Shown piece by piece: positions 26,053 through 58,884 of a stretch of DNA of 63,357 nt (position 1 is the first letter of the stretch; every line of letters begins with the position of its first letter). The stretch comes from Paraflavisolibacter caeni (GTDB lineage: Bacteria; Bacteroidota; Bacteroidia; Chitinophagales; Chitinophagaceae): contig NZ_JAOTIF010000033.1 of the NCBI RefSeq assembly GCF_025628885.1, positions 1 to 63,357 on the forward strand. The letters are read 5' to 3'. Position numbers and translations under genes: made by a program. The notes below the pieces were generated by a model that saw only the letters and a program-made list of their open reading frames with translations, was not told the DNA's origin and searched no databases.

Positions 26053-26067
26053 TCCGCCAGAGGCGGA
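26053..26067. repeat. Dispersed palindrome TCCGCC-AGA-GGCGGA (copy in susC-susD spacer)
   Basis: Perfect 6-bp arms with a 3-nt loop, in the 89-bp spacer between susC and susD. It is the same core as in ispG at 36716-36730 and, with loop TAA, at 58492-58506. Flanks (gaatgacgaa and cacgtgacgaa) differ from those copies. Confidence 0.75.
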
Positions 26068-35787: not shown

Positions 35788-35802
35788 TCCGCATCTGGCG
35801 GA
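35788..35802 (-). repeat. Dispersed palindrome, inverted copy upstream of ispG
   Basis: On the minus strand it reads TCCGCCAGATGCGGA, one mismatch from TCCGCCAGAGGCGGA. It lies in the batC-ispG gap, 14 bp before the ispG ATG. Confidence 0.55.
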
Positions 35803-35816
35803 TTTGGGGGTATAAC

Positions 35817-37889
35817 ATGCAGTCTTATTGCGAAAATCTTACACAGTATAAACGTTTAGCAACTAAGGAAGTTTCCGTTGGCGGCCTGCTTCTGGGTAAC
35901 TTCCATCCTATTCGTGTGCAAACAATGACCACTACTGATACGATGGATACCATAGCAACAGTGGAGCAATCGATCCGTTGTATAGAAGCAGGTGCCGAAC
36001 TAGTCAGAATTACCGCGCCTTCCAAAAAAGAAGCAGAGAACCTGCTCCAAATCAAAAATGAGCTGCACCGGCGAGGCTATAAGACGCCCCTGGTAGCTGA
36101 TATCCATTTTACACCCAATGCCGCAGAAATCGCAGCCCGCATTGTAGAAAAGGTGCGCATCAACCCTGGCAACTATGTAGACAAAAAGAAGTTTGAAACA
36201 ATTGAATACACGGATGCCGAATACATAGAGGAAATAGAACGCATTCGCGACCGCTTTATCCCACTGCTCAATATTTGTAAAGAGTATGGCACTGCCATGC
36301 GCATAGGCACCAACCACGGGTCGCTCAGCGACCGTATCATGAGCCGCTATGGTGATACTCCTATGGGTATGGTGGAAAGCGCCATGGAATTCCTGCGCAT
36401 AGCAAGAGCAGAAAGCTATCACAATATTGTCCTAAGCATGAAGGCCAGCAACCCCCAAGTGATGGTACAGGCCTACCGCCTGTTGGTCAAGACCATGTTC
36501 GAAGAGTTCAATGAATGCTACCCCCTTCACTTAGGCGTTACAGAAGCCGGAGACGGTGAGGATGGCCGTATTAAGAGCGCTATAGGAATCGGCACTTTAC
36601 TTGAAGATGGTCTAGGTGATACAATCCGCGTTTCTCTTACCGAAGATCCGGAATTGGAGATCCCGGTGTGCAGGGATATTATAAAGAGATACCCGCAGGC
36701 CAGCGCACACCCCAGTCCGCCAGAGGCGGAGAGCATCAGCGCGCAAGGGCTTAATAGTTATTCCATACGAGAGGACTCGGGGGTGAGTGTGAGTAGTGCC
36801 GCACGCCGTGCTACTTTCCCAATAGGTAATATTGGTGGCACACAGGTTCCAGTTGTAATAGCAGACCTCAGCAAACTAGAAAATATTACTCCAAAGGACC
36901 TGCAAGGTATTGGCTATACCTATCATGAGGAGACCGACAAATGGACCATTTCTGACATGGCCGCTGACTATATATTCACAGGCCACCAATTGTTGAACTT
37001 TTCCCTTCCCGGAACACTCAAAGTAATTGCATACCCGGCGACCTGGGTAGAGGCTGCAGATAAAACAAAGTACTTTCCTATTTTCTCTGCCAAGGGCTTT
37101 AACGAAGCAGGGTTGGTCAGTGATACCATGAACTTTGTGATGATCGACTGCTTTAGTGATGAAACCTCGATCAATGACTTTACAGATCTTGAACATTTCA
37201 GTTCTTCAGGAAAAGGAGCACAGGACAAGGTAGTTCTTTGCCTGAGCAGCACCCGTCAAAATGCAATGCAATCAGTGCGGCAGATGTTTGAAGAACTGGA
37301 AAAGCGCAATATAAAAAACCCGGCCATCCTCATCGTTGACAGCAATTGGCAAACAGCAGATGAACACCTGATTCATTTTGCCACGGAAGCCGGCGCCCTG
37401 TTGCTGGATGGCTATGGTGATGGTGTTTGCTTTGGCATGTCTGCGGAGGCTTACAAGCAGTTTAATGAAGATAAAGTTGGCCTGTCAGGCAGGCGCTACA
37501 CAGGGCAAGGACAAGAAAAGGCCGAACAGTTCATCAACAACACCGCCTTCAGCATCTTGCAGGCAACCCGTACAAGAATCTCAAAAACAGAATATATCAG
37601 CTGCCCAAGCTGCGGCAGAACCCTGTTTGATCTGCAGGAAACGACAGCAAAGATCCGCTCTGTGACCAATCACCTAAAAGGCCTGAAGATCGCCATCATG
37701 GGCTGTATCGTAAACGGTCCCGGCGAAATGGCAGATGCCGATTTTGGTTATGTGGGCAGTGGCCCGGGAAAAATCACACTCTACAAAGGCAAAGAAGTAG
37801 TAAAGCGTAATGTTGCCAGTGAAGTAGCCGTAGAAGAGCTCATCAACCTGTTGAAAGACAATGATGCCTGGGTAGAACCTCAATTGTAG
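35817..37889 (+). CDS. ispG: 4-hydroxy-3-methylbut-2-enyl-diphosphate synthase, long form
   Basis: The 690-residue enzyme converts MEcPP to HMBPP in the MEP isoprenoid pathway. An N-terminal TIM barrel (about 1-295, VGGLLLGNFHPIRVQTMTTTDT) is followed by a large insertion domain (about 330-560, the long form of Bacteroidota and plants) and a C-terminal 4Fe-4S domain with ISCPSCGRTLFD (Cys pair) and IMGCIVNGPGEMADADFGYVGSGPGK (third Cys and catalytic Glu). At residues 299-310 a 35-nt copy of a dispersed palindrome is inserted in frame (PSPPEAESISA), in the barrel-insertion linker. The product feeds undecaprenyl-P and quinone synthesis; uppP is also in the window. It ends at a terminator at 37906. 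Confidence 0.97.
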   Translation: MQSYCENLTQYKRLATKEVSVGGLLLGNFHPIRVQTMTTTDTMDTIATVEQSIRCIEAGAELVRITAPSKKEAENLLQIKNELHRRGYKTPLVADIHFTPNAAEIAARIVEKVRINPGNYVDKKKFETIEYTDAEYIEEIERIRDRFIPLLNICKEYGTAMRIGTNHGSLSDRIMSRYGDTPMGMVESAMEFLRIARAESYHNIVLSMKASNPQVMVQAYRLLVKTMFEEFNECYPLHLGVTEAGDGEDGRIKSAIGIGTLLEDGLGDTIRVSLTEDPELEIPVCRDIIKRYPQASAHPSPPEAESISAQGLNSYSIREDSGVSVSSAARRATFPIGNIGGTQVPVVIADLSKLENITPKDLQGIGYTYHEETDKWTISDMAADYIFTGHQLLNFSLPGTLKVIAYPATWVEAADKTKYFPIFSAKGFNEAGLVSDTMNFVMIDCFSDETSINDFTDLEHFSSSGKGAQDKVVLCLSSTRQNAMQSVRQMFEELEKRNIKNPAILIVDSNWQTADEHLIHFATEAGALLLDGYGDGVCFGMSAEAYKQFNEDKVGLSGRRYTGQGQEKAEQFINNTAFSILQATRTRISKTEYISCPSCGRTLFDLQETTAKIRSVTNHLKGLKIAIMGCIVNGPGEMADADFGYVGSGPGKITLYKGKEVVKRNVASEVAVEELINLLKDNDAWVEPQL
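36712..36746 (+). repeat. Dispersed palindromic element inserted in frame in ispG
   Basis: A 35-nt stretch (ccagtccgcc, aga, ggcggagagcatcagcgc, g, caa) matches 58488-58522 at 32 of 35 positions. The core TCCGCC/GGCGGA is a 6-bp hairpin. In ispG it is translated as about 11 residues with no frameshift. See findings. Confidence 0.9.
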
Positions 37890-46395: not shown

Positions 46396-47340
46396 ATGGA
46401 ACAAAATACTTCACTTCAACAACAACTCCTGGATGCAGGTGTACACTTCGGCCACCTGAAGAAGAAGTGGAATCCAAAGATGTTGCCTTACATTTTCGCT
46501 GAAAAGAAAGGTATTCACATCATTGATTTAAATAAAACTACTGAGTGCATGCAGGAAACTGCAGCTGCTTTAAAGCAAATTGCACGCAGCGGTAAAAAGA
46601 TCCTGTTTGTTGGCACTAAAAAACAAGCAAAAGATATCGTTACCGAATGTGCTCAGCGCGTAAACATGCCTTATGTTACCGAGCGTTGGCTGGGTGGTAT
46701 GTTGACCAACTTCAACACTGTTCGTAAGAGCGTGAAGAAGATGCAAAGCATTGAGAAAATGCTGGGTGATGGTTCTTTCGACAACGTAACTAAGAAAGAG
46801 CGTCTGACATTGAGCCGTGACAAAGAAAAGATGGAAAAAGTATTGGGCGGTATTGCTCAACTGGGACGTGTTCCTGCTGCTTTGTTCATCGTAGACATTG
46901 GCCATGAGCACATTGCTTTGGCTGAAGCTAAACGCCTGGGTATTACTACTTTCGGCGTAGTTGATACCAACTGCGATCCTAACAAAGTTGACTTTGCTAT
47001 TCCTGCAAACGACGATGCTACTAAATCTATCGCTATCGTAACTCAATACATCACTGCAGCTATTGCAGAAGGTTTGGCTGAGCGTCAAGCTGCTAAAGAT
47101 GAAGAGGGTGATGAACAAAGTGATGATGAAAAAGAAAAGAAAGCAGCACGCCTTGAAGCAGAAGCTCAAGCTGAAGGTGGTCGCGGTGGCCGTGGTGGTC
47201 GCGGTGGCCAAGGTGCTGGCCGTGGACCTGGCGGAAACCGTGGTGGTGGTGGCCAAGGTCAAGGTGGCGGTCGTGGCCGTAGCGGCGGTGCCAACCGTGG
47301 TGGTGGCCAAGGCGGAGCACGCAGACCTGCTGGAAGATAA
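46396..47340 (+). CDS. rpsB: 30S ribosomal protein uS2 with Gly/Arg-rich C-terminal extension
   Basis: Residues 1-235 are a normal uS2 (LLDAGVHFGHLKKKWNPKMLPYIF, ERWLGGMLTNFNTVR, ALFIVDIGHEHIALAEAKRLGI). An acidic/basic linker (about 236-260) is followed by about 55 residues dominated by RGG, GGR and GGQ (about 260-314). Ordinary uS2 is about 230-250 residues. The extension would lie on the solvent side of the 30S platform or head junction, near bS18/bS21; its role is inferred to be RNA or protein contact. Confidence 0.97.
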   Translation: MEQNTSLQQQLLDAGVHFGHLKKKWNPKMLPYIFAEKKGIHIIDLNKTTECMQETAAALKQIARSGKKILFVGTKKQAKDIVTECAQRVNMPYVTERWLGGMLTNFNTVRKSVKKMQSIEKMLGDGSFDNVTKKERLTLSRDKEKMEKVLGGIAQLGRVPAALFIVDIGHEHIALAEAKRLGITTFGVVDTNCDPNKVDFAIPANDDATKSIAIVTQYITAAIAEGLAERQAAKDEEGDEQSDDEKEKKAARLEAEAQAEGGRGGRGGRGGQGAGRGPGGNRGGGGQGQGGGRGRSGGANRGGGQGGARRPAGR

Positions 47341-47434
47341 TAAGACCCAATCACACCCCCGCCCTTAAAGGGGAGGCTAAGGTTGGACACTCTTTTTGAT
47401 CAGAAATAGTTCTTTTCAAGAGCTTTTCATATAA

Positions 47435-58404: not shown

Positions 58405-58884
58405 GAATTTAGAAGTGAACAAAAATAAAAGATTGCATTTAGAACAGCCCTGCTTCTTTTAAAACCTTTTAAAACTTTTAACCCACTCCAGTCCGCCTAA
58501 GGCGGAGAGCATCAGCGCACAATCCTAAGTTAAGGGATGACAAACCTAATGTCCGGAGGAATGCAGTTATTTTAGAACATAGATAAAAGTGGTATAATCT
58601 GTTATTTTTGCAAACCGTAAAACCACGGAACTGTAGATTTGGATCGCGGATTTTCAGGATTAAGACCGCTGATTATTATGATTTACAGGATTTGGGGAAT
58701 TGCAACATAGTTATAATAGGTTTAGGAATAGGGCAATAGTTGAATTGAAAACGGAATTCTTCATTTCAAATTGTTTGACAAAGGATTTCCCAGACGAATA
58801 TTTCTGTAGGGCGGTTAGAATTGGTAATAAAAACTTTACATATCAAACTTAAAATTCCCTTTTAAGGGATGAGGCACAACCTTC
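58405..58884. other. Divergent intergenic region, ftsX / leuS
   Basis: No protein gene is visible in these 480 bp. It contains the 35-nt palindromic element (58488-58522), a candidate -7 box tatttttg at 58603-58610 (TAnnTTTG), no clear -33, and low-complexity AT-rich sequence up to the leuS start. The leuS 5' leader would be about 270 nt if that box is used; I see no strong T-box-like structure. Confidence 0.5.
58488..58522 (+). repeat. Dispersed palindromic element, intergenic copy
   Basis: Same 35-nt element as in ispG (32/35 identical). The stem TCCGCC/GGCGGA has the loop TAA instead of AGA. Its flank tcctaagttaagggatgac is unrelated to the ispG flank. Confidence 0.9.

Follow-up and report, generated by a model that had tools for sequence, protein, structure and literature searches.

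An in-frame palindrome within ispG

The window, by which we mean the whole 63,357-nucleotide stretch of DNA that was analyzed, carries ispG (gcpE) at 35817..37889 on the plus strand, encoding a 690-aa protein recognized by Pfam GcpE and NCBIfam ispG_gcpE. Within this gene lies a hairpin, TCCGCC-AGA-GGCGGA (36716..36730, plus strand), preceded by a left tag, CACACCCCAG (36706..36715, plus strand), and followed by a tail, GAGCATCAGCGCGCAAGGGC (36731..36750, plus strand). Tag and tail were placed by alignment of copies of a repeat that we call family A, and the same tail occurs with another stem elsewhere in the genome. The preliminary description of this DNA reported a match between 36712-36746 and an intergenic stretch at 58488-58522, and a recount confirmed its 32/35 identities. 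The pattern CCAGTCCGCCNNAGGCGGAGAGCATCAGCGC, with up to 3 mismatches, has two occurrences in the window and none in 100 shuffles; the 35-nt match is real and far beyond chance. The ispG frame stays open across the element, where the translation reads ...PQASAHPSPPEAESISAQGLNSYS..., and IspG is complete.

The element-derived stretch may exceed these 35 nt, because a tag of pattern CGGGGGTGAG faces outward at 36778..36787 (minus strand, where it reads CTCACCCCCG), beginning 47 nt past the hairpin, and because the PFEYK motif usual in IspG linkers is missing from this protein. This right tag is the sole match in the window, with none in 100 shuffles, for a pattern picked only after being seen, and it resembles the ends of some of the DUF559 elements described below. 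The probable full stretch is 36703..36789 (plus strand; codons 296-325, in a predicted disordered linker), both of its ends being our estimates. The ispG insert may be a two-ended mini-element of ~87 nt, given the outward tag and a two-ended insert in the RlmD gene of the same genome.

The linker of the window's IspG measures 55 aa, compared with mostly 41–46 aa in a set of 111 IspG proteins whose linker ends were set by regular expression. The ~11 added residues first reported are thus right as net growth, while the stretch derived from the element is perhaps longer. In an AF2 model built from 32 sequences (mean pLDDT 72.4), residues 296-327 fall below a pLDDT of 50, which may partly reflect poor conservation in the alignment; they cover the element-derived stretch and form the linker after the TIM barrel where the insert sits. 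The insert plausibly persists in ispG because it occupies this disordered linker with the frame open and no stop, adding residues that are tolerated. An ancestral, conserved element in IspG had been named as the finding that would overturn the insertion reading, and it does not hold, as relatives differ at the linker site. The search turned up no strain whose ispG site is empty, and the full-length IspG proteins of the relatives searched share at most 79% identity, too distant to resolve a clean insertion to the base.

Repeat families in the genome

A count over the 7,014,184-base genome gives 65 occurrences of the palindrome TCCGCCNNNGGCGGA and none of its reversed control, which bears out the proposal of a dispersed palindromic element lying in frame in ispG. 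This genome-wide search for the core also revealed that the copies split by their flanks: with assignment cut at 9 flank mismatches, 38 belong to family A, 13 to family B, and 14 to neither. Family A has the layout ccccag-palindrome-gagcatcagcgc, with an ACCCC-type tag, the hairpin TCCGCC-n3-GGCGGA, and a AGCATCAGCGC tail; its consensus reads CCCCCAG before the hairpin and GAGC after it. ACCCC stands directly before the hairpin in 25/35 aligned copies and CACCCC in 16/35. Family B has the layout gattcgaa-palindrome-caagtt. It can be written GAATGACGAATGATTCGAA-TCCGCC(A)GAGGCGGA-CAAGTT and is a separate family bearing the same palindrome (in the window's genome, G000, for example L024, L017, and L019).

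A covariance model built from 35 family A copies found at least 48 matches in the 7.0-Mb genome (E≤0.1) and at least four weak matches, in two genomes, among 12 relatives; these counts are lower bounds, as the model scored 150 of 217 to 959 first-look candidates per genome (150 of 713 in the window's own). Amplification of family A looks lineage-specific because the 12 relatives, with 150 candidates scored in each, yield few and weak matches. Within the window the model matches the left unit of the ispG insert (36696-36756, 64.5 bits) and the intergenic copy (58472..58532, plus strand, 60.7 bits), both of which were in its training set.

Family A flanks can enclose a different stem, CCCCTAAAGGGG, as in two of 17 stem-agnostic matches and in a third copy; the alternative stem of these three tag-and-tail matches is CCCCTAAA(A)GGG(G). 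The hairpin itself, more than its sequence, therefore seems to be conserved between the C-rich tag and the tail. Only four of the 38 family A copies, ispG included, have a facing right-hand tag within 350 nt downstream, against ~0.3 expected from a background of six tags in 137,326 nt (both strands). Since 34/38 lack a facing tag, most copies are single units; by the criteria used for MITEs, family A is short and dispersed, with facing ends in just those four copies. A mobilizer bounded by family A within the genome was also considered and set aside: by eye, the ORF in the 0.6-kb gap between the two copies at L084 shows nothing typical of mobile DNA.

Other palindromes in the window are more distant. 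The preliminary description placed an inverted copy before ispG (35788..35802, minus strand), which may be a degenerate family A copy. Its palindrome has one mismatch, its ACCCCC tag is one base out of register, and the family A model leaves it unlisted up to E≤10, which makes it no more than a possible relic. The palindrome in the susC-susD spacer (26053..26067, plus strand) had been taken as a core-only copy of the ispG element, an assignment we do not retain. Its flanks differ: with 11 mismatches against the cut of 9 it falls in neither family, its best score is with family B, and by eye it shares flanks with one copy of that family (L019). A further tag-plus-hairpin element, ACACCCCCG-CCCTTAAAGGG-GAGG, lies at 47350-47377, just past the end of the ORF at 46396-47340. 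The bare TCCGCC palindrome was rejected as a diagnostic feature because the sequence around its copies in other genomes (L248-L266) is unrelated in most cases. In G013 and G024 (L248, L251), TCCGCCTCAGGCGGA clusters next to gaac(t/c)gccg and aatccgatgct, words that from their letters look tRNA-derived.

Family A in coding sequence

Most family A copies are extragenic: 30/38 lie outside and 8/38 inside predicted ORFs of ≥130 aa; L020, flagged inside an ORF near its start, is not among the coding copies listed below. This count of genes against spacers, as the ORFs were called, also disposes of the possibility that the core is confined to ispG homologues. The element does enter coding DNA, as first suggested, being internal and in frame not only in IspG but also in RlmD (NCBIfam rumA, 329.9 bits) and in a DEAD/Helicase_C/WH_Lhr helicase (DEAD-box; a weak model match, E 0.06). 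In four cases the element forms the C-terminus of an ORF: L076 with rhamnosidase domains, L084 with a CCG-domain protein, L085 with PaaA_PaaC (a weak match, E 0.03), and L012, which has no Pfam match. Two more copies may form N-termini, in a His_biosynth protein (HisA by NCBIfam; E 0.015) and a semialdehyde dehydrogenase (ArgC by eye; E 0.009); both are weak model matches, and in either protein translation may begin only past the element. Of 38 neighboring ORFs, seven end at a stop codon that lies in the hairpin loop or overlaps it. One family B copy forms the C-terminus of isopentenyl-diphosphate isomerase (L025).

The RlmD insert in the window's genome is two-ended, comprising CCTCACCCCCGG with a CCCCTACAGGGG hairpin at one end and TCCGCC at the other, so that each of the two stem types is represented once. 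Across species the RlmD loop ranges in length between 43 and 84 aa in the region compared (L212-L229, three rows of which were not delimited), and it resembles a further hot spot for inserts of this kind (e.g., L220 and L229).

The IspG linker as a hot spot

IspG linkers were compared at 118 loci, three of which lacked an anchored ORF; removal of duplicates left the 111 distinct proteins from Chitinophagaceae and relatives, with some rows cut short or overrun by the regular expression that set linker ends. The linker is hypervariable in both length and sequence. A GC-rich palindrome occupies it in 9/18 searched genomes of the window's genus, and these palindromes belong to several families, including CCCCTTCCC, CCCCTCCC, TCCGCC, and others. 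GC-rich hairpins with a stem of ≥8 were found in the linkers of 8/111 proteins, all eight from the window's genus. The window's IspG supplies a ninth linker hairpin, outside this tally since its 6-bp stem is below the 8-bp cut. In raw counts there are 10 hairpins in 15,051 linker nt versus 37 in 214,359 other nt, and four of these 37 are runs of N; restricted by eye to GC-rich stems, the comparison is nine in the linker versus about five elsewhere. This marks the linker of IspG as a hot spot, one shared by several families of palindrome. Another mode of linker growth is seen in G029, where the linker (L063) is filled with tandem KRETxNVNGEA-like repeats.

In one relative, G010, an entire DUF559 domain (114 bits) lies in the linker, flanked on both sides by palindromes. 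Besides DUF559, the Pfam matches of that protein are GcpE and a nuclease model that overlaps and is weaker. Two further linkers (L038 and L064) retain both ends of the G010 element, in frame and without DUF559 (by eye).

DUF559 genes between hairpin repeats

Matches to DUF559 (PF04480) were found in 22/38 genomes. The window's own is among them only weakly: its single match (25.5 bits) lies within a 1604-aa frame, and it has no good DUF559 gene. DUF559 genes between hairpin inverted repeats are present in some relatives and were not found in the window's genome. EDxHD homing endonucleases presumably belong to the same nuclease superfamily.

Among good matches (≥68 bits) in the 38 genomes, counted by eye, 17/48 fall in open frames of ≥300 aa, which we read as in-frame insertions or fusions. 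Their hosts are leucyl-tRNA synthetase (LeuRS; four genomes), M23 peptidase (three), TDO (two), and the N-terminal part of an ArgB-like kinase (two), the rest being single cases: IspG, a RecQ-like helicase, HemE (C-terminal), HsdR, a MetH-like protein, and a mutase-like protein. Host and DUF559 domains were found together by Pfam in 15/17; the other two, L108 and L113, contain runs of N and lay outside the Pfam run. Some names were given by eye, namely MetH-like (L108), mutase-like (L113), RecQ for a DEAD/Helicase_C protein, and ArgB for amino acid kinases. The remaining 31/48 matches are in shorter frames, one of them (L125) fused to a DUF5522 protein. In-frame DUF559 can be viewed within TDO, LeuRS, the RecQ-like helicase, and IspG at L101, L103, L100, L104, L112, L284, L282, and L107.

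Flanking hairpins were counted at 26 of 30 DUF559 loci, with four weak partial matches (L116-L119) excluded. They flank DUF559 on both sides in eight of the 26 versus 4/2000 random windows, and on at least one side in 21 versus 189/2000; five loci have no flanking hairpin by the criterion used. Terminal inverted repeats are perfect in two of seven elements, over 40/40 nt in the G004 LeuRS and 28/28 nt in the G005 TDO, and both consist of a C-rich stretch plus a hairpin. The 40-nt ends comprise TAACCTCACCCCCGG, the hairpin, and AGCG, while the G005 repeat has the C-rich stretch and lacks the CACCCCC tag. Inverted ends are imperfect in the G008 TDO (25/29) and the G006 LeuRS (17/18), and weakest at L104, L107, and L124 (10 to 12 of 15 at best). 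In six elements examined for frames open from end to end, only one of the six frames was open in each, and it was the host frame. One genome, G011, contains 45 copies of the palindrome CCCTTCCC, and two of its six DUF559 genes each lie between two such copies.

Of the 16 genomes with a TDO match, 14 have a TDO free of the DUF559 insert, the exceptions being G005 and G008. For this pair, DUF559 has a dN of 0.23 and a dS of 1.29, compared with 0.08 and 1.51 for the host. Only the TDO pair was used, because synonymous sites in the M23 and LeuRS pairs are saturated or nearly so and those comparisons were discarded.

Family A and several DUF559 ends have a layout in common: ACCCCC(A/G)G, a hairpin, and (G)AGC. 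The tag adjoins 15/86 GC hairpins in the relatives' loci versus 58/5000 controls, and 14 of these 15 are at DUF559 loci. This tie consists of a short common tag and layout, noticed after the fact.

Origin of the ispG insert

We favor, with a probability of roughly 0.6, a reading of the ispG insert as a non-autonomous, hairpin-bearing mobile element of the tag, hairpin, and tail family, and as a cargo-less relative of the DUF559 elements. The observations behind it are the repeat family, the in-frame location, the hot spot, the inverted hairpins that bound DUF559 genes, and low dN/dS of DUF559 in one host pair; that DUF559 mobilizes the element, that family A and the DUF559 ends share an ancestor, and that the element moves today are inferences. 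What counts most against it is that no good DUF559 gene was found in this genome, that no allele with an empty site turned up, and that the short tag is the only sequence tie. Family A might instead be a passive repeat: template switching or repair would make ectopic copies of its hairpins, and an unconstrained IspG linker would retain them, with DUF559 a trapped passenger and no dedicated enzyme involved. The window's genome suits this account, having a single weak match to DUF559 and none to a Y1 transposase, as do the predominance of single units in family A and the hypervariability of the IspG linker. It is harder to reconcile with DUF559 genes whose inverted ends match perfectly over 40 nt and 28 nt, with hairpin-flanked DUF559 in several unrelated hosts, and with a DUF559 dN well below dS in the TDO pair, and we judge it unlikely.

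The remaining explanations invoke known kinds of element. Size, hairpin, copy number, and mostly extragenic sites all fit a classic REP, as known from RAYT (tyrosine transposase) systems, and the loop stop codons that end 7/38 neighboring ORFs recall GTAG REPs, which often supply stops (PMC3733652). This identity is nonetheless disfavored and quite improbable, as the genome has no Y1_Tnp (PF01797) match at E≤0.001, the GTAG tag is absent, and CGTC is present in 4/35 tails, three bases off the hairpin. Several copies lie close to ORF ends, where a hairpin selected in RNA (as a terminator, for mRNA stability, or for regulation) could act, and the ispG copy would then have been placed there for regulation. 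That the copies in RlmD, the helicase, and IspG share no regulatory position, that relatives' IspG linkers hold other palindromes or none, and that the ispG locus (L031) has no Rfam match at gathering score make this very improbable. An open-frame insertion in an essential enzyme, with a G010 version that carries an endonuclease, also invites comparison with an intein or intron relic. However, Pfam detects no splicing domain in the window's IspG or the G010 protein, Rfam at gathering score, introns included, detects no family in 10 loci (nine of them DUF559 loci; L031 and L107 are among the 10), and the window's insert is only about 30 codons long. With neither a splicing domain nor a group I or II intron match, we disfavor such a relic and give it a very small chance.

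Under the favored reading, that of a cargo-less relative of DUF559 elements, a complete element would consist of a gene for DUF559 (Vsr-like, PD-(D/E)XK) bounded by terminal inverted repeats that each comprise a C-rich tag and a hairpin. It would enter housekeeping genes in frame, so that host and endonuclease are translated as a single protein. The likeliest mechanism is that the endonuclease introduces a cut or nick in DNA and that the element is copied during repair, with the hairpin ends serving as putative recognition sites for the enzyme. Short cargo-less copies would be deletion products moved in trans, and family A would represent such units, moved by an endonuclease now absent from the window's genome. 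The ispG insert, of MITE or REP-like size, would belong to a family spread within this lineage, and the IspG copy would have survived because selection spares insertions that keep the frame and fall in a tolerant position.

Comparison with known systems and significance

Small dispersed repeats of cyanobacteria have reportedly been described by Elhai. Rickettsia palindromic elements (RPEs), to which the preliminary description likened the ispG insert, are palindromic, dispersed, of several families, and found in frame in protein genes (PMC10969869, PMC3733652). The likeness stands insofar as the in-frame palindrome behaves alike. RPEs are set apart by their length (~150 bp in PMC10969869, shorter here) and by phylum, and the CGTC end given for them in PMC3733652 is not at the hairpin end here, where 4/35 aligned copies have CGTC three bases beyond. 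Related elements here also carry an endonuclease. GTAG/CGTC REPs and REPtrons are likewise short tagged hairpins, mostly intergenic, some in frame and some giving stops, and CGTC REPs, some RPEs included, apparently lack a dedicated transposase (both from PMC3733652). Here, in contrast, the tag is ACCCC-like, the genome has no Y1 transposase match, and the relatives' endonuclease is DUF559/Vsr-like.

DUF559 occurs in Vsr-like proteins (PMC12907096), and the endonuclease here is of that nuclease superfamily. The nearest splicing-free endonuclease insertion that we found is the ShiLan domain of a phage methylase, which leaves the host frame open with no known splicing; its HNH endonuclease is out of frame (both points from PMC11855218), whereas DUF559 is in the host frame and between palindromes. 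The elements described here may constitute a new class, in which a Vsr-like (DUF559) endonuclease lies within tag-plus-hairpin inverted repeats, inserts in frame into housekeeping genes, is carried unspliced within the host protein, and leaves cargo-less palindromes, that of the window's ispG included, as footprints, a proposal we advance tentatively and at somewhat less than even odds. Our search found no literature on these elements, most subscription journals and bioRxiv preprints being beyond its reach, and the DUF559 literature found included no title on insertions or palindromes.

How palindromes enter protein genes is a question that becomes testable here: the coding palindromes described in these Bacteroidota are accompanied by DUF559 as a candidate enzyme, and some DUF559 genes are bounded by inverted hairpins that match perfectly and lie in frame in essential genes. 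Our results suggest that odd architectures such as DUF559 inside LeuRS, TDO, and IspG are mobile insertions rather than functional fusions, and that functional protein genes have been invaded by small mobile DNA on repeated occasions.
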